The position numbers and the translations under genes were made by a program. Below, one piece after another: positions 3,507-22,695 of a stretch of 23,333 nt of DNA. Origin of the DNA: a virus; IMG/VR virus record IMGVR_UViG_3300046012_001165, positions 1-23,333 of that record; one strand, written 5' to 3'. The notes beneath the pieces are model-generated. The model saw only the letters and a program-made list of their open reading frames with translations, was not told the DNA's origin and did not search any database. Position 1 is the stretch's first letter; each line of letters opens with the position of its first letter.

Positions 3507-4718
3507 GTGGCCGCGCGCACCGGCCACCCGCAGGCGCCGGGCCTGCGCTGGCGCCGCGGCAGCCCGGCGTGGCTGCCGCCGCAGGAAGCCATTGCCGCCG
3601 GCTATCGCCCCAGCCGCGTCGCCCTCGATCATCTGGCCGACCGGCCGGAGCTCCTGAAGGCGCGCTGCGCCGCCCTCAATGCCGACCTGCGGCTATGGCT
3701 GGCGGGCTATCGCGACGATCCCGCGGTTTTCGACGGCTCGCTGCGCAACCTGCTCGTGCTCTATCAGCAGCATCCGGAGAGCTCCTACCAGGCGCTGCGG
3801 CCCTGGACGCAGGCGACCTACGCCAGCTACCTCAGCTATCTCAGGGCGACGGTCGGCGAACGACCGATCGAGAGCATCACCGGACTGGACCTGGTGCGCT
3901 GGCAGCGCGACTGGACGGCCGGGGGCGTGCACCTTGCCAAGGCGATGCAGCTGCGCACCGTGCTGTTGTCCGCCAGCCGCTTCGGCGCCTCATTGCGGGC
4001 GCCCGGATGCGCCGAATTCGCAACGGTCATCCGCGAAACCCGCCGCGGCTTCGGCCGGCCGAGGCCGCGCGATGCGGTCCTCACGGCCACCGACGTGGCC
4101 GCGGCGCGCAAGGCGGCGCACGCCGCCGGCCGACCCTCGCGGGCCATGGTCTACGCCATCGTCTACGAAACGACGCTGCGGCTCTACGACGTAATCGGCC
4201 GCTGGTGGCCGGCCGATCGGGCGCCGGCGTCCGAGGTTGTCGACGGGCAGGGGCGGCTCTGGGTCGGGCTGTGCTGGGAAGACATCGACGACGATCTGGT
4301 GCTGCGCTACGTCCCGTCCAAGACGGCCGGCTCGACCGGCCTCGGCATCCTCTACCCCCTCGCCACCGCCGCGCCGATGGTGATGCAGGAATTGCGTCAC
4401 CACCCGCTCAAGCGCCGCGCCGGCCCGCTGATCGTCAACGAGCGCACCGGGCTGCCTTACACGCCCGGCGCCTTTCAGCGGGGCTGGCGCGAGGACCGGG
4501 CCGCCCTCGGCCTCGACAACAACATCTGGGCTCGCGACATGCGGGCCTCCGGCATCACCGAGGCCCGGGCCGGCGGCGCGGCGCTCGACGACGCCGGCAA
4601 AGTGGCGGGCCACGCCGGCACCCGCACGACGGGCAGTGTCTACGACCGGGCGGCGCTCGAGGCCGCCGAGCGCTTTGCCGCTGCACGGCTCAAGCTGAGG
4701 GCAAAGCGGCGGCGCTGA
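3507..4718 (+). CDS. Tyrosine recombinase (phage-type integrase)
   Basis: GTG start 3 bp after the regulator stop; 403 residues, a normal integrase length. The N-terminal third (about 1-185) has a core-binding-like helical region including SYLSYLRATVGERPIESITGLDLVRW in outline. Catalytic candidates lie in the C-terminal domain: Arg225 in TTLRLYD, Lys272 in PSKTAG, Arg346 in ARDMRASGITEA, His369 in AGHAGTRTT, and nucleophile Tyr379 in SVYDR. Box II has Arg-Asp-Met-Arg rather than His-x-x-Arg. It would insert or excise the left-hand element. It is unrelated in detail to the second integrase at 5551-6753, so two elements meet here. Confidence 0.85.
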   Translation: MAARTGHPQAPGLRWRRGSPAWLPPQEAIAAGYRPSRVALDHLADRPELLKARCAALNADLRLWLAGYRDDPAVFDGSLRNLLVLYQQHPESSYQALRPWTQATYASYLSYLRATVGERPIESITGLDLVRWQRDWTAGGVHLAKAMQLRTVLLSASRFGASLRAPGCAEFATVIRETRRGFGRPRPRDAVLTATDVAAARKAAHAAGRPSRAMVYAIVYETTLRLYDVIGRWWPADRAPASEVVDGQGRLWVGLCWEDIDDDLVLRYVPSKTAGSTGLGILYPLATAAPMVMQELRHHPLKRRAGPLIVNERTGLPYTPGAFQRGWREDRAALGLDNNIWARDMRASGITEARAGGAALDDAGKVAGHAGTRTTGSVYDRAALEAAERFAAARLKLRAKRRR

Positions 4719-5550: not shown

Positions 5551-6753
5551 TCATTTGTTCGCCACGAGGTAGGCGTGGCGGCGGCGGGTGGCGGCGAGGA
5601 CGCGCTTTTCGGTGCGCTTGGCGTAGCCCTCGTAGGCCCGGCTGCGGTGCGCCGAGAGGGCGCGGCCCTGGCCGTCGGTGAGCTCGGCCTCCTCGAGCTC
5701 GGTCATGCCGCCATGCCGGCAGGCGTCGAGGCTGAACGTCTTCGGCAGGCCGGCGGCGTCGGCCACCTTGCGCACCAGCTGGGCGAAGCGGGTGGGCTCG
5801 TAAAGCGTGCCGTCGGGCCTGAGGATCATCGGCACGCCGCGGCGCGGCAGACCGGCCAGCACCGCCTCGGCATCGCCGTAGAACAGCATCGTGCCCTCGG
5901 CCGTGGTCTCGCTGAGGACGTGCTGGACATGGGCGCCGGTCTTGTGGTGCTCGATCCGGATGGTGCGGCCGGGCACATAGCCCGACCAGGTGACGTAGCC
6001 GCCGAGCACGTTCTCGGGGCGCTGCAGCCACTCGAAGCAGATCACCGCCGCGGCCGCCAGCTCGGGCTGCTTGAGCTCGATCGCCTTGGCGGCGAAGGCA
6101 TAGACCGCCTCGCGGTCGTGCGCCGGCTTGACCTGGCTCTGGTAGCCGACGAGCTGCACGCCCACCCAGGGGTTCGGCACGTCGCGCCGGAACTCGCGCG
6201 GGTAATGGGGCTGCATCAGCCGCCAGGCGGTCTTGCAATACATCACCGCCTTCTCGCCGCGCCGGTAGCGCTCGCCCTCGATCATCTTGCCATAGACGAT
6301 CTCGGCCATGGCCGGGGTGACGCTGGCGATCGGGTAAGTGCCGAGGGCGATGCCGGCCTTGGACTTAATGGCGAGGACCTGGTCGAACAGCCGACGATAG
6401 TCGGGCCGGGCCCGCTCGCCCACCCGGCGGCGGAAGATTTCGCTCTCGAGGTAGGTTTCGATGAGCCAGGCGACCGAGCCCGGCGGGGCATAGCGGCGAA
6501 TCGGCGGCGCCTTGCCGGTGCCGAAGCTGCCACCGCCGGTGCGCCACTCGTCGAAGCGGGCATTGTGGGGCAGGGCGGCGGCATCGAGCTCGGTTTGCGA
6601 CAGGCCGGCGCCGAGCGGCTGGGAGGCGAAGGGGAAGCGACGGCCGAGGGCTTCGGCCTGCCGGCGCCAGTAGGGCGGGGGGTTCCAGTAGTAGGCGGGG
6701 GCGCCGGCGGCCGACCGCTTGGCGATGACGAAGCGGGGCAATGCGATCGTCAT
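5551..6753 (-). CDS. int: Tyrosine recombinase (phage integrase)
   Basis: 400 residues from ATG 6753 (MTIALPRFVIAKR), 2 bp after the stop of the excisionase-like gene. Residues 1-90 are a Tyr/Trp/Pro-rich N-terminal region seen in alphaproteobacterial phage integrases. A SAM-like core-binding region (about 90-200) follows, then the catalytic domain: Arg245 in LQRPENVL, Lys271 in HHKTGA, Arg346 in DACRHGGMTE, His369 in SAHRSRAYEGY, and Tyr377 (or Tyr374) as nucleophile. It carries out site-specific integration and excision with Xis. It ends the leftward operon and is followed by a terminator and the tRNA-Cys half. A 102-bp piece of this gene is duplicated at 2194-2295. Longer upstream starts are rejected because that sequence is a shadow of the upstream genes. 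Confidence 0.92.
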   Translation of the reverse strand: MTIALPRFVIAKRSAAGAPAYYWNPPPYWRRQAEALGRRFPFASQPLGAGLSQTELDAAALPHNARFDEWRTGGGSFGTGKAPPIRRYAPPGSVAWLIETYLESEIFRRRVGERARPDYRRLFDQVLAIKSKAGIALGTYPIASVTPAMAEIVYGKMIEGERYRRGEKAVMYCKTAWRLMQPHYPREFRRDVPNPWVGVQLVGYQSQVKPAHDREAVYAFAAKAIELKQPELAAAAVICFEWLQRPENVLGGYVTWSGYVPGRTIRIEHHKTGAHVQHVLSETTAEGTMLFYGDAEAVLAGLPRRGVPMILRPDGTLYEPTRFAQLVRKVADAAGLPKTFSLDACRHGGMTELEEAELTDGQGRALSAHRSRAYEGYAKRTEKRVLAATRRRHAYLVANK

Positions 6754-6755
6754 GG

Positions 6756-6992
6756 TCAGAAGTCCTGGGCGGCGTCCGCGACGTCCAGCTCCGCCGATGC
6801 GCCGATCGCCCGGTCCAGATCGTCCCTGAGCCAAAGCTTCCTCCGCCCGTCGTTGACCTTGGGCTGAGGGTATTCGGTGCCGACCCGGCTGGTAAAGGCC
6901 TCGACGCTCGGCTCGCCGCAATAGCCGGCGGCATAGGCGGCCGGCATGCGGCGGGGCCAGGAGCCCAGCGGGATTGCGGCGGGCCGGGCCAT
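6756..6992 (-). CDS. Excisionase-like small DNA-binding protein
   Basis: 78 residues, with a winged-helix/AlpA-like pattern: residues 16-50 read MPAAYAAGYCGEPSVEAF, then a Pro-rich turn (YPQPKVNDGRRKLW) and L-R-D-D-L-D. This is the usual layout in excisionases and MerR-like directionality factors: HTH, then 'P.p....g.r.w...dld'. The start at ATG 6992 overlaps the upstream stop by one base, and int follows 2 bp later, so Xis and Int are co-translated. The acidic tail is typical of small phage regulators. It could alternatively be a general HTH_17-type regulator. Confidence 0.75.
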   Translation of the reverse strand: MARPAAIPLGSWPRRMPAAYAAGYCGEPSVEAFTSRVGTEYPQPKVNDGRRKLWLRDDLDRAIGASAELDVADAAQDF

Positions 6993-7965: not shown

Positions 7966-8510
7966 GTGGTCTCCAGGCGGTGCGGCAGGCCGTGCCGCGC
8001 GGAGGTGGCGTTGAACTTGGCGACAACGGCGGCGCCGAGCTCGATGCCGGCGGCGTTGGCGAGATCGCCGAGCACCAGCAGCAGGCCGCGCGCCGCGATC
8101 CGCGTTGCCGACACGGTTTCCGCCGCGGCGAGCCGCCCGGCGAACACCATGGCGCTGCTGCCCCGCACCGACAGGCCGATGCCGAAGGGCGGCACGACGG
8201 GGGCGATCTCGCCGAAGTGGTCAAAGCCGAAATCCTGCCCCTCGCTGGCCAGCAGCAGGTCGAGGTAGATCACCGTGTCGGCCAGCTCGTCGGCTAGGTC
8301 GCGCAGCAGCTCGGGCGCGCTCTTGCCGTTGCCGATGATGGCATCGCGCTCGCGGTTGAGCTTTTTGACGAGGTTGAGCGCCTGGCCGAGCTCGCCGCCG
8401 ACGGCGACCAGCCAGTCGGGATAGCTCCAGGCATCGAGCGGCAGGTGCCAGCCCTCGGTGCAGCTGGCGACGGTGGCGCGGCGGAAATCGGCGAAGCTGA
8501 GCGGGGGCAT
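7962..8510 (-). CDS. MazG-like nucleotide pyrophosphohydrolase
   Basis: 182 residues. The first 100 resemble the all-alpha NTP pyrophosphatase (MazG-like) fold. Acidic metal-ligand candidates are Glu40 in VGGELGQALNLVKKLNRE and Glu75/Asp78 in LADELADTVIYLDLL, giving the E...ExxD pattern. A predicted helix pair lies between them. Such phage enzymes hydrolyse NTPs or dNTPs to the monophosphate and may tune nucleotide pools or alarmones. The last 70 residues form a second helical region with unclear role. It sits mid-operon with short overlaps. The first EExxE motif is incomplete, so catalytic activity is likely but not certain. Confidence 0.75.
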   Translation of the reverse strand: MPPLSFADFRRATVASCTEGWHLPLDAWSYPDWLVAVGGELGQALNLVKKLNRERDAIIGNGKSAPELLRDLADELADTVIYLDLLLASEGQDFGFDHFGEIAPVVPPFGIGLSVRGSSAMVFAGRLAAAETVSATRIAARGLLLVLGDLANAAGIELGAAVVAKFNATSARHGLPHRLETT

Positions 8511-8893
8511 CAGACGTCACCTTGCAGCTGGGAAGGGCCTTGCGCCTCTCGCCGGGCATCCCACATCGCCAGCGTCATCAGCCGGCCGGTGATGCTGTTG
8601 GTGCGGCGCCCGAGGGCGCGGGCGATCTCGGCGGTGCTCCGGCCGGCCGTGGCCAGCCCGAGCAGCTCGGCGTCCTCTTCCGGGCTGAAGCGGCGCACCT
8701 GGTGGTTGCCGCGCGTGGTGAGCATCGGCATCCTCGATGGCGCGATCGTCGATCCATCCGGCCGGTCGGCGCCGACCTTGAGGCAGTTCCAGCGGATCAG
8801 CCCCTTGGAATAGCCGAGCCGTCGCCCGATCCAGGCGTAGGATTTTCCCGCCTCGCGCCACGCGGCCATTCGGTCGATCTGCTCGGGGGTCAT
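8510..8893 (-). CDS. HTH / SANT-Myb-like DNA-binding protein
   Basis: 127 residues with two helical repeats. The first, MTPEQIDRMAAWREAGKSYA plus WIGRRLGYSKGLIRWNCLKVG, is a resolvase-like HTH. The second, RRFSPEEDAELLGLATAGRS then TAEIARALGRRTNSITGRLMTL, is a typical phage SANT/Myb-like or GcrA-type 'ees.ll.l...G.s..eIA..LgR....v..r'. Between them is a linker. A regulator or DNA-binding role is likely. It overlaps both neighbours (4 nt upstream, 1 nt downstream). Confidence 0.75.
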   Translation of the reverse strand: MTPEQIDRMAAWREAGKSYAWIGRRLGYSKGLIRWNCLKVGADRPDGSTIAPSRMPMLTTRGNHQVRRFSPEEDAELLGLATAGRSTAEIARALGRRTNSITGRLMTLAMWDARREAQGPSQLQGDV

Positions 8894-9390
8894 CGCGCAC
8901 CGAGCTCGGTCGAGGAAAAGCTGTGCGCGGCGGCGGCGATGATCTCGGGCCAGAGGGCGCCGATCTCGGCCGTCGAGAAGTTGCGCTGCCGCAGCGCGAC
9001 CAGCAGGTCGCCGGGATTGGGCATCAGGCCGGCGATGATGCCGGCGGCGTGGGCGACCCGCTCCTTGCGGTACTCCGGATCATGGTCCCACGGGTTGACC
9101 GGCGGCTGCGGCCGGTCGTGGCGGACCACTTCCGGGTTGGCGAGGCGCTTGGCGTCGCCGATCGAGGCGTCGAGCTCGCCGTCGGAGAGGTCGCAGGTCT
9201 CCTCCGCCTGGCGGAAATCCTCGCGCGTCGTCGGCTGGCCCTGGTGCGCCTGGCGGCGGATCACCGCCAGCATGCGTTCGGGGACGGTGAGGGCCGCCAG
9301 CGCCGGCGCCAGCGGGATGCGTCGCCGGGCGGCGGCGAATTGGCCGGCCCTGCCGGCAGAGGAAAGTGTCTCGAGCGAGGAATCGAGCAT
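8890..9390 (-). CDS. Hypothetical protein (166 aa)
   Basis: Starts at ATG 9390, overlapping the previous stop. A GTG three bases upstream is less likely. The first 35 residues are low complexity. A helical region with LTVPERMLAVIRRQAHQGQ and REDFRQAEETCDLSDGELD follows, then NPWDHDPEYRKERVAHA, then a helical end. The helix pattern could be a DNA-binding or replication-loading role, but I recognise no named domain. Confidence 0.65.
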   Translation of the reverse strand: MLDSSLETLSSAGRAGQFAAARRRIPLAPALAALTVPERMLAVIRRQAHQGQPTTREDFRQAEETCDLSDGELDASIGDAKRLANPEVVRHDRPQPPVNPWDHDPEYRKERVAHAAGIIAGLMPNPGDLLVALRQRNFSTAEIGALWPEIIAAAAHSFSSTELGAR

Positions 9391-9638
9391 CACGCACCTG
9401 CCCGGTCGAGCGCGGCGCGGAAGGCGAGGACGGCGGTGGCGATGCGCGGGGCGATGGTGATGCGGACGTAGTCCTCGTTACGGTCGGCGGCGGCGTAGCG
9501 GAGCTGGGCGTCATAGGGCGCAACGAAGGCGCGGGCGGCCGCGACGAGTTCGGCCGCCGGGCCGAAGCGCCGCGCCGCGGCGACGGCATCGAAGAGGTTG
9601 ACGGGGTCGTCGGCAGGGGTATCGGGGGAGTCGAGCAT
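9390..9638 (-). CDS. Hypothetical protein (82 aa), first gene of the leftward early operon
   Basis: ATG 9638 has an excellent Shine-Dalgarno (GGAGG, 5-nt spacing on the minus strand). The 82-residue product is mostly helical: NLFDAVAAARRFGPAAELVAAARAF and a second half with RIATAVLAFRAAL. It is directly downstream of the CI-controlled promoter at 9691-9663, so it would be the first leftward early protein. No family is recognised. The next gene overlaps its stop. Confidence 0.7.
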   Translation of the reverse strand: MLDSPDTPADDPVNLFDAVAAARRFGPAAELVAAARAFVAPYDAQLRYAAADRNEDYVRITIAPRIATAVLAFRAALDRAGA

Positions 9639-9662: not shown

Positions 9663-9691
9663 ATGTAAGCATAACTTACATAAACTGGCAA
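9663..9691 (-). promoter_or_regulatory. Leftward early promoter with CI-type operator
   Basis: TTGCCA (9691-9686), a 17-bp spacer and TTACAT (9668-9663) form a promoter on the minus strand. The perfect 19-bp palindrome ATGTAAG-N5-CTTACAT at 9663-9681 overlaps the -10 box and spacer. The same palindrome controls the cro-like promoter at 11240-11258, so the CI protein encoded nearby very likely represses both, like the left and right promoters of lambda. Confidence 0.85.
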
Positions 9692-9698
9692 TGCCGAA

Positions 9699-9713
9699 GT
9701 CAGTTGAACTGAC
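9699..9713. promoter_or_regulatory. 15-bp perfect palindrome
   Basis: GTCAGTTGAACTGAC, with 7-bp arms around one base, lies just upstream of the leftward -35 box and does not match the CI operator. It could be the binding site of an activator or a second regulator. No partner is identified. Confidence 0.5.
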
Positions 9714-9774
9714 GTGGCGATGGGCACTGGCGCTTGCTAGGGTGGGGAGAAGCCGAGGGGGCGGTGCTCCCCGG

Positions 9775-10371
9775 ATGAAATTCGTCGCGGGAAACTGGCT
9801 GGCCGACATGCCGGTGACCGCCGTGAAGAAGCGCGGCCGGCTCGAGGAACTGCGGATCCTCAAAAGTGCGTTCCGGCACGAATCGGTGAAGGCCTCGGAT
9901 ATCCTCGCGGCGGAAATCGTCACCGAGACGAACCGGACGTCGATCCTGGCAAAGGTTGGATGGGGCGCCGCAGGCGCCGTCGCGCTCGGGCCCCTGGGGC
10001 TGCTGGCAGGCGTGATCGGTGCCGGCCACAAGCAGGAACGGGTGATCGCTATCGGCATCCGGGACGGCCGCCGGGCCCTGATAAAGGGCACGGCGGCAGA
10101 AGCGGAAATGCTGCTCGCCGCTGCATTCTCGAATGCCGTTGCGCCGCCGACGGCGATCGAGGCAGCGCCGGTCGATAACAGCAAATGGTCGAAGCGCGAT
10201 CGCGAGGCGCATCAGCGCAGCCTGCTGCCGCCGGCGATGCCGGTGGCAAGTGCGCCTGCCGCTGTGGACACCAGCAAGTGGTCGAGACGCGACCGCGAGG
10301 CCTACGAACGGACTCGGGCTGCCGCGCTGCTGGCCGCGACCGTCGGCGCTCCGGACGACTCGCCGGCCTGA
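9775..10371 (+). CDS. Glycine-zipper / bPH-like protein with duplicated C-terminal motif
   Basis: 198 residues from ATG 9775; the start is uncertain because no Shine-Dalgarno is visible. Residues 1-60 are polar. Residues 62-83 are a hydrophobic glycine-rich hairpin (AKVGWGAAGAVALGPLGLLA), followed by RVIAIGIRDGRRALIKGT. That order, glycine hairpin then 'v.f.v.f.dGr', is common in proteins with a PH-like fold of unknown function. The C-terminal part holds two copies of V-D-(N/T)-S-K-W-S-(K/R)-R-D-R-E-A, about 30 residues apart. The gene lies between the leftward promoter and cI, a position where phages often carry lysogeny-expressed (moron) genes such as superinfection exclusion proteins. That role is inference. 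Confidence 0.7.
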   Translation: MKFVAGNWLADMPVTAVKKRGRLEELRILKSAFRHESVKASDILAAEIVTETNRTSILAKVGWGAAGAVALGPLGLLAGVIGAGHKQERVIAIGIRDGRRALIKGTAAEAEMLLAAAFSNAVAPPTAIEAAPVDNSKWSKRDREAHQRSLLPPAMPVASAPAAVDTSKWSRRDREAYERTRAAALLAATVGAPDDSPA

Positions 10372-10384
10372 GCGCGACTGGCGT

Positions 10385-11170
10385 TCAGTGGCGGGTGCGT
10401 CGCGGTGATGCGCCGGCCGGCAGCCGGGCGGCTTCCTCCCGGCGGGTGAAGACCCGGTGGCAGGCCATGACATGCTGGCGCACGAACAGCACCGACTGGC
10501 CGGGCGGGTTGAACTGGTAGGTGACGATCTGCGCCGGCGTTTCGTGGTCGTACTGCTTGATGAATGATTGCGGCTGGCCGTTGGCGCTGTCGCGCTCCTG
10601 CACGATCACGATGTCGGCCTGCCGGATCGTCCGGTGCGGCGAGACGAAGACGCGCTCGCCGTCCGCATAAACGGGCAGCATCGAGGTGCCCTTCACCGTG
10701 AGCGCGTAGAGGTCGGCCTCGTCGGCGAGGCCCGGCGGCGGCGCGATGAACTCCACCGGCTCAGGGGTCAGGATGAAGCCGCCGCGGCCGAGCTCCCCAG
10801 CCGCCACCACGCCATAGAGCGGCGTGACTTCTGCACCGGCCTCCTGCCTGCCGCGCGGCGGCTTCGGCTTGGGCGGCCGCCGGAACGGCTTGCCGATCTC
10901 AAATAGCAGCTCGCCCGCCGGCGCGGCGCCGCGGTTGAAGTGCAGCCAGTCGAGGGATGCGCCAGTCAGCTCGGCCAGGGCGGCGGCATTGCGCTGGCTG
11001 ATTCCGGTGGTGTCGTTCTCCCAGTTGGTGACCGACACCCGCGTGACGCTGGTCGGCCGGCCACCGCCGGCGTCTCTTTTCAACAGCGTCGACAGCGCCG
11101 CCGCCAGCTCCTCCTGCTGCAGCCCCATCGCATTGCGCAAAAAGGCAATTCTGGCGCCGATCGTGTCCAT
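10385..11170 (-). CDS. CI-type phage repressor (XRE HTH plus S24 peptidase)
   Basis: 261 residues from ATG 11170. Residues 1-75 are an XRE HTH (ARIAFLRNAMGLQQEELA, then VSVTNWENDTTGIS). After a Pro/Lys linker comes a LexA/UmuD-type S24 domain: a candidate cleavage site Ala124-Gly125 in VVAAGELG, nucleophile Ser163 in VKGTSMLPVY, and Lys205 in QSFIKQY as general base. Family knowledge says such repressors hold the lysogenic state and self-cleave with RecA upon DNA damage. The three ATGTAAG-type operators are the expected targets. Its promoter appears leaderless, as for lambda cI. Confidence 0.9.
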   Translation of the reverse strand: MDTIGARIAFLRNAMGLQQEELAAALSTLLKRDAGGGRPTSVTRVSVTNWENDTTGISQRNAAALAELTGASLDWLHFNRGAAPAGELLFEIGKPFRRPPKPKPPRGRQEAGAEVTPLYGVVAAGELGRGGFILTPEPVEFIAPPPGLADEADLYALTVKGTSMLPVYADGERVFVSPHRTIRQADIVIVQERDSANGQPQSFIKQYDHETPAQIVTYQFNPPGQSVLFVRQHVMACHRVFTRREEAARLPAGASPRRTRH

Positions 11171-11177
11171 GCCGGCG

Positions 11178-11206
11178 AGGCTAGCGTAAGGTGGCCTTAC
11201 GTCCAA
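11178..11206 (-). promoter_or_regulatory. Repressor (cI) promoter with operator; leaderless
   Basis: On the minus strand TTGGAC (11206-11201), 17 bp, then TAGCCT (11183-11178). The operator CGTAAG-N5-CTTACG (11185-11201), a diverged form of the 19-bp site, fills the spacer. The ATG at 11170 begins 7 nt after the -10 box, so the mRNA would begin at or next to the start codon. No Shine-Dalgarno precedes this ATG, which supports a leaderless message. Confidence 0.75.
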
Positions 11207-11229
11207 TGTCGGATGCACTGACTTGCCTC

Positions 11230-11258
11230 TTGCGATGTTATGTAAGTTGCGCTTACAT
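11230..11258 (+). promoter_or_regulatory. Rightward early (cro) promoter with CI operator; leaderless
   Basis: TTGCGA (11230-11235), 17 bp, then TTACAT (11253-11258). The perfect 19-bp palindrome ATGTAAG-N5-CTTACAT (11240-11258) contains the -10 box. The ATG at 11266 is 7 nt after the -10 box, so translation probably starts on a leaderless mRNA. Confidence 0.85.
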
Positions 11259-11265
11259 CGCGGCC

Positions 11266-11511
11266 ATGACGACTCATGAGTCCACATCGCCGCTGGAGCG
11301 CGCCAAGGCCGCCGCGGGCGGGGTTGCCGCCCTGGCGGCGGGGCTGAGCCGGGGCGGCAGGGCGATCTCGTCGCAGGCGATCAGCCAGTGGCGGCAGGTG
11401 CCGGCGGCCCGCGCCCTCGAGGTCGAGGCGCTGACCGGGATTTCCCGCTTCGAGCTCCGGCCCGACATCTACGGCCCGGCACCGGCCGCCAGCCCGTCGA
11501 GGGTGGCCTGA
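11266..11511 (+). CDS. YdaS/Cro-like HTH regulator
   Basis: 81 residues. Residues 10-60 fit the YdaS/Cro-like fold: SPLERAKAAAGGVAALAAGL, then AISSQAISQWRQVPAARA and LEVEALTGISRFELRPDIYG. This pattern ('a...aGg...lA..lg.....iSqW..VPa.r...ve..tGvsr..LRPDiy') is well known for small regulators divergent from phage cI genes. It is the first gene of the rightward operon and would oppose CI to start lytic growth. I prefer MTTHES at 11266 over an ATG at 11191, which lies upstream of the promoter. Confidence 0.85.
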   Translation: MTTHESTSPLERAKAAAGGVAALAAGLSRGGRAISSQAISQWRQVPAARALEVEALTGISRFELRPDIYGPAPAASPSRVA

Positions 11512-12122: not shown

Positions 12123-12412
12123 AGTTTTCCCTTTCCATTCGGCGCGGGGCTCTCCTGCCGCGCCGGAGCGGTTCCGCCGGGACAGACCTCCTCCCCGTTG
12201 CGGCGGACCACCCGGAGGGGCGGGCAGACCATGGCCGCCCCACCGGTTACTGGCTGGCGATGCGCCCTGCCCCCCAGCAAGGGGCGCATCGCCGGTATCT
12301 TTTTACCGCCGGCGATGCAGAAGCGGATGGGGGAAAGGCGGGCTGCCATGAGACGGGTTTAGCCGGCCGCGCCGGCGGCGTCGCCGGCAATTACGAGGGG
12401 CAATTGCCATGA
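12119..12412 (+). CDS. Possible protein (97 aa) in a hairpin-rich stretch
   Basis: The frame MKFSLSIRRGALLPRR runs from ATG 12119 to TGA 12412 and overlaps its neighbours at both ends by ATGA, which favours a real gene. However, the protein is low in hydrophobic order and the DNA is full of inverted repeats (12141-12164, 12256-12293). A different frame, ATG 12231 to TAG 12362 (MAAPPVTGWRCALPPSKGRI in its first 20 residues, 43 aa), is also protein-like, so which frame is translated is open. Confidence 0.4.
   Translation: MKFSLSIRRGALLPRRSGSAGTDLLPVAADHPEGRADHGRPTGYWLAMRPAPQQGAHRRYLFTAGDAEADGGKAGCHETGLAGRAGGVAGNYEGQLP
12256..12304 (+). terminator. Strong hairpin followed by T5; possible attenuator
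   Basis: A perfect 12-bp inverted repeat GGCGATGCGCCC (12256-12267) and GGGCGCATCGCC (12282-12293) with a 14-nt loop is followed after 6 nt by TTTTT (12300-12304). The distance to the T run is a little long for a classic terminator. A second hairpin with 7-bp arms lies at 12141-12164. Their place inside the early operon, before the CII-like gene, suggests a conditional terminator. Confidence 0.45.
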
Positions 12413-12903
12413 GGCCCTACAAGCCCCGCCTCCCCGGGAGCGCCCACGATGCGCTCGCCAACATGGTGGCACAGATCGGCGAGAGCCAGGTGCCGTCCGG
12501 CAACGGCATGCAGATGTTCGCCGACTTCGAGGACCGCTCGATCAACACGCTCTACCACGAGCTCGATCCGGCCGGTCCGTCGCAGGTTTCCTATGCCCGC
12601 GTGGCGCGAGCGGTGAGCCATTTCAAGGTGCGGGCCCCCGCCGACCACATGGCCGCCTGCGCCGGCGGCATCTTCGTCAAGCTCCCCGAGCCCGGCAAGG
12701 GACGCTGGGGCGAGCTCACGGCGGAGACGGCCGAGGAAATGGGGCAGGTGACCGCCGAGATCGTGCGCGATCTCCTGACCGGCGAGGTGACTCCGGCCGC
12801 GGCACGCCACCTGCTGCCGGAGCTGTTCGAACTGGTGCGGCACCTCAGCGACCTGGTCGCACTGGCCCAGTCGGCCCTCGGGGAGGGCGGCCATGCCGGC
12901 TGA
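12409..12903 (+). CDS. Phage CII-like regulatory protein
   Basis: 164 residues. The start, AHDALANMVAQIGESQVPSG then EDRSINTLYHELDPAG and VSYARVARAVSHFKVRAPAD, fits the layout of the phage regulatory protein CII family of P2/186-type phages: 'HdALa.mv..ig.....a...gks..tLyhelnP......sy.q......l..AP..hmA.l.gg.fv'. The C-terminal half is helical, suited to oligomerisation. It would act as an HTH transcription activator in the lysis/lysogeny decision. The position after the Cro-like gene agrees. The HTH is not perfectly canonical, so I keep it as CII-like. Confidence 0.65.
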   Translation: MRPYKPRLPGSAHDALANMVAQIGESQVPSGNGMQMFADFEDRSINTLYHELDPAGPSQVSYARVARAVSHFKVRAPADHMAACAGGIFVKLPEPGKGRWGELTAETAEEMGQVTAEIVRDLLTGEVTPAAARHLLPELFELVRHLSDLVALAQSALGEGGHAG

Positions 12904-20814: not shown

Positions 20815-21092
20815 GCCGCTATTTCTTTGCCCAGGCGCTGACCCCGGGGTTCTGCGCGCCGATCCTCTGGGGGGTGCGGCAGGGCATTGCGGTGGCGGAG
20901 ATCGCCGCCGGCCTCGAGCTCGACCCGGCTTTGGTCGTGGTGGCGATCGAGGAAAACAGCCCGGTGCGGTTTCCGCCGCCGGCGCGGCAGCCCGTGCCGC
21001 TCGAGCCGAAGCGCCGCGACCCGGCCTATCGGGCCTGGATGCGCAGCCGGCAGGGCGCCGCCGCGGCGTTGCGGGCGGGGGCGCCGCCATGA
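20811..21092 (+). CDS. Hypothetical protein (93 aa)
   Basis: Starts at GTG 20811. Residues 20-45 (ILWGVRQGIAVAEIAAGLEL then DPALVVVAIEE) could be a short HTH. The remainder is Pro/Arg-rich. ATGA couples it to the replication gene. A DNA-binding accessory protein is possible. Confidence 0.55.
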   Translation: MSRYFFAQALTPGFCAPILWGVRQGIAVAEIAAGLELDPALVVVAIEENSPVRFPPPARQPVPLEPKRRDPAYRAWMRSRQGAAAALRAGAPP

Positions 21093-22039
21093 TCTCCCTC
21101 GGCTGGCTCGATGCCATGACCGCCTGCGGCCTCGACGAGGCCGAGCAATTGCGGCTGATCCGCGAGCTCTTGGCCATCCGGGCGCGGCGGCGGGCGGCGC
21201 GGGCCGCGGCGAAGCTGAACAACCATGACATGGCTGACGTGAGAGGCGGGGCGAATGCTGCCCTCACCCACGACACGGCTGTCGTGATTCAGGCGCCGCA
21301 GCGCCACGGCCACGTGCACAATGGCAGCCACAAGACGGTGGCCCGGGCGGCACTGCTGCGGCAGCCGCGACTGACGCCGGCGGCGCGCGTCATCGGCGAG
21401 CAACTGGTCGAGCACGCCGATGCGGCGGGCCGCTCCTTCTGGTCGCTGGGCCGCATGGCCAGGGATTCCGGGGTTTCGCCGCGCACGGCGAGCCGGGCGG
21501 TGCAGCAGCTGGCGGCGTTCGGGCTGCTCGGCGTCGTGGTGCACGGGGCCGGGCGGACCAACAGCTACAGGCTCGACTGGGCGGCGCTCGCCCGGGTCGC
21601 CGCCGGGGTGCCGGCGAAGCTGAACAATCACGCCAAAGCCGCGCCAATCACGACAGCGGTGACCGCCAATCACGACAGCGGTGTCGCGGAAATACTGAGT
21701 CCTAATCCTGAGTCTGAGTCAGTGCCGGTGGCGAGTCACCGCGCGCGGGCGGCGCCGGACTGGCAATTGCCGCTCATGGTGCCGATCCATGGCGGGCGCG
21801 GCACGGCAGCAGCACAAGGATCGCCGGCCTATGGCGCGGCGGGGCAGCGGCTGTGGGACGCTATCGGCCGGCATGGCGCGGCCGGCGAGCACGATCTGCG
21901 GCGGCAGCTGCTCGATCTGGTGAGCGGCGATCCCGGCCTCGCGGCCCGGGCGACCTTCGCCGAGCTCCGGCAGCCCGGCAGCGGCCTCGGCGTGCTGCTG
22001 GCGGCCACCGGCCCGCCGGCGCAGGCGGCCGGGGGATGA
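21089..22039 (+). CDS. Winged-helix replication-initiator-like protein (lambda O type)
   Basis: 316 residues. A coiled, Arg/Ala-rich start is followed by a central winged helix (about 95-165): ARVIGEQLVEHADAAGRSFW, then SLGRMARDSGVSPRTASRAV, QQLAAFGLLGVVVHGAGRTN and SYRLDW. This is the pattern of phage replication proteins of the O type ('.a..vl..L...an.....w.s...LA...g.s.rTv.r.l..L...Gll......gr...Y.l'). The C-terminal half is variable. The gene contains repeats near 21625-21720 and an inverted match at 21269, as expected if the initiator binds within its own gene. A helicase or loader gene is not seen beside it, so the role is inferred. Confidence 0.65.
   Translation: MISLGWLDAMTACGLDEAEQLRLIRELLAIRARRRAARAAAKLNNHDMADVRGGANAALTHDTAVVIQAPQRHGHVHNGSHKTVARAALLRQPRLTPAARVIGEQLVEHADAAGRSFWSLGRMARDSGVSPRTASRAVQQLAAFGLLGVVVHGAGRTNSYRLDWAALARVAAGVPAKLNNHAKAAPITTAVTANHDSGVAEILSPNPESESVPVASHRARAAPDWQLPLMVPIHGGRGTAAAQGSPAYGAAGQRLWDAIGRHGAAGEHDLRRQLLDLVSGDPGLAARATFAELRQPGSGLGVLLAATGPPAQAAGG
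21269..21286. repeat. Palindrome CACGACA-N4-TGTCGTG
   Basis: Seven-base arms around a 4-nt centre. Its right arm, read in reverse with the next bases, gives AATCACGACAGC, the same core as the direct repeats at 21643 and 21665. Confidence 0.65.
21625..21720. repeat. Iteron-like cluster; candidate replication origin
   Basis: GCCAATCACGACAGCGGTG occurs perfectly at 21643-21661 and 21665-21683 (22-bp period), and its core CAATCACG also at 21625-21632. Just downstream is a less G+C-rich stretch with CTGAGTC three times (21695, 21708, 21714). Direct repeats inside an O-like gene followed by an easier-melting stretch resemble the lambda origin layout. Confidence 0.55.
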
Positions 22040-22068
22040 TAGGGGCTTTGGAAAACAGGGGCGGGCAG

Positions 22069-22695
22069 ATGGCGTGGTACGTGGTGCAGACGAAGCCGAA
22101 CAGCGAACGCAAGGCGGCACGCGAGCTCAGGGCGGTAGGGCTGCGCGTGCACCTGCCGCGCCTGGCGCTGCGGCGGCGCAACCGGAGCGGCATCGAGATC
22201 GAGGGACGCCGCTTCAAGCCGCTGTTCGCGGGCTACCTGTTGGTGCGCTTTCCGCCGGCGCTGCACGTCGACGGGCAACCCCGGTTCGACCTGGTGCCCG
22301 GCCACCAGCTGCCGTTGCGTTGGGCCTATGGCGCCGACCGCGAGTTGCACCAGGTGCCGGGCGGCACGGTCGAGCACGCCCACGTCGCGCGGCTGCTCTG
22401 CTGTGCGGCCGACGGTGAGGCGCGGCCGCTGGCGCTGCCCGACCGCGAAGTGCGCGACTACCTGCGCCGGCAGCACGCGCATGCCTACGACGCCGCCGCG
22501 ATCGAGCGGCTGGCGCGCCAGGAGCGGCGGGCGAGGTTCCAGCCGGGCAGGTCGGTGCGCATCAACGAGGGCCCGTTCGCCGGCTTCCTGAGCACGATCG
22601 TGGCGGTCGACGGCGACGCGGTGCGGCTGCTGCTCGACATTTTCGGGCGGGAAACGATGACGACGGTGGAGATCGGGCAGCTCGAGCCGGGATGA
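22069..22695 (+). CDS. NusG-like transcription elongation factor
   Basis: 208 residues from ATG 22069, which has AGGGG 7 nt upstream and begins MAWYVVQTKPNSERKAAREL, the classic NusG N-terminal (NGN) start. ATG 22036 overlaps the previous stop but would add 11 non-conserved residues. The NGN domain continues through PLFAGYLLVRFPP. The KOW domain is at about 158-190: FQPGRSVRINEGPFAGFLST then VDGDAVRLLLDIFGRETMTTV. A 70-residue insertion separates them. NusG paralogues bind RNA polymerase; a specialised copy at the end of a phage early operon may act in antitermination of late genes. Confidence 0.88.
   Translation: MAWYVVQTKPNSERKAARELRAVGLRVHLPRLALRRRNRSGIEIEGRRFKPLFAGYLLVRFPPALHVDGQPRFDLVPGHQLPLRWAYGADRELHQVPGGTVEHAHVARLLCCAADGEARPLALPDREVRDYLRRQHAHAYDAAAIERLARQERRARFQPGRSVRINEGPFAGFLSTIVAVDGDAVRLLLDIFGRETMTTVEIGQLEPG

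Follow-up and report, generated by a model that had tools for sequence, protein, structure and literature searches.

The stretch of DNA analysed here (the window), taken from an IMG/VR virus record, was 23,333 bp long with a G+C content of 71%. The contig was probably a fragment of a phage genome, so further operator sites may lie elsewhere in the phage. The divergent genes cI (minus strand) and cro (plus strand), both encoding HTH proteins, had the arrangement of a lambda-type immunity region, and CII-like, replication-O-like, NusG-like antiterminator and integrase genes rounded out a lambdoid early region. The genes, predicted promoters and predicted operators were as follows.

3507-4715: phage integrase (family match)
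8510-8893, minus strand: gene of the leftward operon, HTH_38/D5-like transcriptional regulator (family match)
9390-9638, minus strand: first gene of the leftward operon, 82 aa, without a family; GGAGG precedes its ATG
9663-9691, minus strand: PL, predicted leftward promoter, TTGCCA (9686-9691)-N17-TTACAT (9663-9668), layout as in relatives
9663-9681, minus strand: OL1, predicted strong operator ATGTAAG-N5-CTTACAT, ATGTAAGCATAACTTACAT, 0 mismatches, at the end of the PL spacer and over the -10 box
9699-9713, minus strand: OL2, predicted variant operator GTCAG-TTGAA-CTGAC, a perfect palindrome, 7 bp ahead of the PL -35 box
9775-10371, plus strand: gene lying between OL and cI and converging on cI (weak match to phrog_20920)
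10385-11170, minus strand: cI, HTH_3 and Peptidase_S24 repressor (domain families), recognition helix RVSVTNWE
11178-11206, minus strand: Pc, predicted cI promoter, TTGGAC (11201-11206)-N17-TAGCCT (11178-11183), deduced from the sequence
11184-11202, no strand assigned: OR3, predicted weaker operator GTAAG-GTGGC-CTTAC, GCGTAAGGTGGCCTTACGT, 3 mismatches, in the cI promoter spacer
11208-11222, no strand assigned: OR2, predicted variant operator GTCGG-ATGCA-CTGAC, imperfect, one base from the cI -35 box
11230-11258, plus strand: PR, predicted cro promoter, TTGCGA (11230-11235)-N17-TTACAT (11253-11258), layout as in relatives
11240-11258, plus strand: OR1, predicted strong operator ATGTAAG-N5-CTTACAT, ATGTAAGTTGCGCTTACAT, 0 mismatches, in the cro promoter spacer and over the -10 box
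11266-11511, plus strand: cro, YdaS/P22-Cro-type HTH protein of 81 aa (domain families)
12409-12903, plus strand: CII-like regulator of the rightward operon (family match)
21089-22036: replication-O-like gene (family match)
22051-22695: NusG/KOW-domain protein of the phage transcription antiterminator family (family match)

The gene at 9775-10371 occupied the place of lambda rex, and a search with it found no relatives.

The palindrome ATGTAAG-N5-CTTACAT was found three times in the 23,333 bp when up to three mismatches were allowed, and nowhere besides. The chance expectation at this threshold was a mean of 0.07 matches, and three matches never occurred in 100 shuffles. With at most two mismatches, only the two perfect copies (OL1 and OR1) were found in the phage's own record. 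The first-pass annotation had placed one such site at each of three promoters (leftward, cro and cI) and had proposed that a motif frequent across the genome would count against them; the coordinates, the 0, 0 and 3 mismatches and the 17-bp spacer of each promoter were all borne out, and the motif was rare in the window. In OR3, the core GTAAG-N5-CTTAC was intact and the mismatches were confined to the outer bases. The strong operator was placed identically in PL and PR, where it took up the last part of the spacer, with its right arm serving as the -10 box, and OR3 filled the spacer of TTGGAC-N17-TAGCCT ahead of cI. A generic sigma-70 consensus scan scored PL, PR and Pc below its threshold, so that the promoters were called from the alignment and from the layout common to the relatives, and not from a consensus score. 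The predicted transcription start of PR coincided with the cro ATG. Judged by promoter position, the cro and cI transcripts would both begin at or near the ATG, and the cI mRNA is probably leaderless.

Single-sequence searches of the viral and genome collections with CI found nothing, and the relatives were obtained with a two-sequence CI alignment, which recovered 16 viral contigs and 14 loci in bacterial genomes. At 90% CI identity, these 30 loci represented 15 lineages. All of them carried the CI helix RVSVT[NQ]WE; the search pattern contained this recognition helix, so the link between helix and operator was partly built into the sample. A strict GTARG-N5-CYTAC site was located in the short interval upstream of cI, inside the cro promoter spacer, in 14 of the 15 lineages, and the L140 lineage had only GTAAA-N5-TTTAC. 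The strict site occurred again 1.0-3.4 kb downstream of the cI start, at a TTGAC-type promoter of the leftward operon, in 12 lineages; no OL was seen in two Mesorhizobium lineages. The 6 kb upstream of cI held 31 strict sites over the 30 loci, and the remaining approximately 327 kb held 25, of which 24 were at OL and one was an OR3, leaving no strays. Shuffled versions of these loci gave 0.2 strict sites in all. The first and second sites were separated by 34-36 bp at both OL and OR. The window agreed with the group in its CI helix (RVSVTNWE), in the strict site at the cro promoter and in the spacing of the OL pair, although the second member of that pair, OL2, is of the variant form GTCAG/CTGAC. 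The analysis thus showed directly that the sites exist, that they are rare and conserved, that their spacing is fixed and that they go with the CI helix. A small conserved protein divergent from the OL promoter was also observed in three relatives (L138, 7779-8027; L145, 7114-7377; L148, 9053-9301), and it started with F/Y-YVVQPY in two of them.

When the window was scanned with a matrix built from the relatives only, OL1 ranked highest and OR1 next. The fourth and fifth places were taken by 9697-9715, which holds OL2, and 11206-11224, which holds OR2. Outside OL1 and OR1, only three positions in about 23,300 scored this high, and the chance of such a position at any of the three expected offsets was approximately 4 in 10,000 per promoter. 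The position at rank 3 (2385-2403) was discarded as a chance match, as it lay away from the switch and its core was broken. The centre of OL2 was 34 bp from that of OL1, the centre of OR2 was 34 bp from that of OR1, both variants lay upstream of the strong sites, and both carried the same change at position 3 (GTC for GTA). OL2 and OR2 were taken as predicted operators because of their high matrix rank and the 34-bp offset seen also in the relatives. OR3 ranked only 10th, its spacer base lowering the score, and it lay 56 bp from OR1, compared with 48-51 bp in the relatives. Conservation in relatives with the same CI helix strongly supports the main proposal of the first-pass annotation, that all three promoters carry CI operators and that the one on the cI side is weaker. 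Its description of a complete switch with three sites did not hold, since it had overlooked OL2 and OR2, which are separated from OL1 and OR1 by the 34 bp typical of the group. On the sequence evidence, the predicted layout comprises five sites (OL1, OL2, OR1, OR2 and OR3) and replaces the three-site picture.

The two proteins that could read these sites were compared with their relatives. The S24 domain of CI retained Ser163, Lys205 and an Ala-Gly pair (in YGVVAAGE), from which self-cleavage and SOS induction are likely. A single-sequence search with CI gave no PDB match. The AlphaFold model of CI had a mean pLDDT of 77 and an intact five-helix DNA-binding domain with residues 44-51 as the recognition helix. 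The best solved match of its N-terminal part was P22 c2 (TM 0.91), and a profile comparison of the DNA-binding domain likewise put P22 c2 first among solved proteins (5e-13); for the C-terminal part, the best solved matches were lambda CI and LexA. In CI, the turn joining HTH helices 2 and 3 was extended by approximately 14 residues, which AlphaFold modelled by lengthening helix 2 and adding a loop. Cro had five additional residues at the same place in its own HTH turn, and neither insertion was found in any aligned relative.

Very probably, the sites are the operators at which the repressor encoded by the phage itself, CI, acts, within an immunity region of the lambda type. The main competitor for the role of reader is Cro, either acting chiefly or reading the sites equally with CI, with CI possibly acting elsewhere. 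Cro and CI commonly use common operators in lambdoid phages, the Cro of the window is YdaS/P22-Cro-like, and the relatives have Cro proteins similar to one another. The recognition segment of Cro nevertheless differed between the window (SSQAISQW) and the relatives (HQAFYSW or HNALYSW), yet the operator core was kept, as was the CI helix. A search with Cro returned mixed loci, mostly with other CI helices, and these served as controls. None of the twelve loci with other CI helices, which included phages AmM-1, RR1-A and 16-3 as well as L166, contained a strict site, and those with a YdaS-like Cro carried different palindromes, such as the ACAAAT-CC-ATTTGT that occurs twice in L128. L166, the sole relative from a search with the ParB-like gene, shared that gene at 47% identity but had a different CI N-terminus. 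Since the site was present with the helix RVSVT[NQ]WE and absent with others, including L166, it followed the CI helix and not the backbone or the Cro type, and a reading chiefly or equally by Cro is quite unlikely. In L128, the 16-3-like operator palindrome ACAAATCCATTTGT, at 6924 and 7971, flanked the cI of that prophage on both sides.

It is also conceivable that the palindrome is the site of a host regulator such as LexA or CtrA, or a chance palindrome or hairpin. The exact motif occurred in at least 120 other viral contigs in which no CI or Cro relative was found in the available DNA around it, so the bare motif alone proves nothing and cannot serve as a marker. Against this stand the chance expectation of 0.07 in the GC-rich window and the promoter position and spacing fixed in 14 of the 15 lineages. 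The alphaproteobacterial LexA site is GTTC-N7-GTTC and the CtrA site is TTAA-N7-TTAA, and the motif resembles neither. Such an origin is thus highly improbable, and the assignment to CI is preferred. An unlikely refinement of this assignment is a switch with two codes, in which the GTAAG sites (OL1, OR1 and OR3) would be read mainly by CI and the GTCRG/CTGAC sites (OL2 and OR2) mainly by the diverged Cro, with the loops in the HTH turns adapting both proteins. It was suggested by the position-3 change common to OL2 and OR2 and by the insertions in the HTH turns of CI and Cro.

With CI as the reader, we infer binding, repression, cooperativity, activation and induction as follows. CI dimers on OL1 and OR1, between and over the -35 and -10 boxes, would block RNA polymerase at both PL and PR, which would silence cro and the leftward operon. 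The weaker OL2 and OR2, just upstream of each -35 box, may add repression or provide cooperative contacts. OR2 adjoins the -35 box of cI in a position like that of lambda OR2, and might activate cI. At OR3 in the cI promoter, high levels of CI (or Cro) would turn cI down, and the site would thus serve for negative autoregulation or as the place where Cro acts. DNA damage would probably induce the phage via CI self-cleavage, because the S24 serine, lysine and Ala-Gly pair have been kept.

Several known systems resemble the window. In Rhizobium phage 16-3 (NC_011103), an S24-type repressor gene, C, is likewise flanked by operators at PR and PL, with two sites each (OR1, OR2, OL1 and OL2) overlapping or abutting the promoter boxes. 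The 16-3 operators are ACAA-N4/6-TTGT, its repressor has another recognition helix and its OL directly follows the c gene; the 16-3 C repressor and CI were 27.5% identical in the C-terminal half only, and the window lacked the combination of ACAA-N4/6-TTGT operators and matching HTH that marks the 16-3 C family. Salmonella phage P22 c2 provided the closest solved DNA-binding domain, with the long insertion between helices 2 and 3 present in the window CI alone. As in lambda, OL and OR flank the cI region between leftward and rightward early operons, with a CII-like gene, an integrase and a cleavable-type S24 repressor; predicted operators of the same sequence were repeated at PR/PRM and PL, and CI combined an HTH with an S24 domain holding the serine, the lysine and the predicted cleavage pair. 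In contrast to the closely packed lambda operators, those of the window were 34 bp apart around the -35 box, with two OL sites instead of three, a NusG-like antiterminator and a convergent gene between OL and cI. The prophages of Mesorhizobium, Brucella, Xanthobacter, Camelimonas and other Hyphomicrobiales (L136-L165) had the operator core, promoter position, 34-36 bp pairs and CI helix of the window, but their arms were mostly GTAGG, their HTH turns lacked the insertions, OR3 was at -48 to -51, and their CI proteins were 23-33% identical to that of the window. A literature search for the GTAGG/CCTAC operator group, with most subscription journals outside its coverage, found no match. As read from its sequence, the switch is a well-supported, previously undescribed member of the lambda/P22/16-3 kind, an ordinary type of switch. 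It pairs a single CI recognition helix with a single DNA site and provides, for a phage known from sequence alone, an immunity specificity that can be tested directly. The operator signature reads across approximately 15 alphaproteobacterial prophage lineages, few of which have studied switches, and can predict which of these prophages have common immunity.

Two further sequence features were also observed outside the immunity region. A 102-bp direct repeat, 95% identical, was present at 2194-2295 and 6256-6357, 4062 bp apart, and its second copy lay inside a minus-strand reading frame (5551-6738) with no Pfam or PHROGs family match. At 1414-1436, an AT-rich perfect palindrome with 10-bp arms, CTTATATGTGATCCACATATAAG, was located within the 71% G+C contig.
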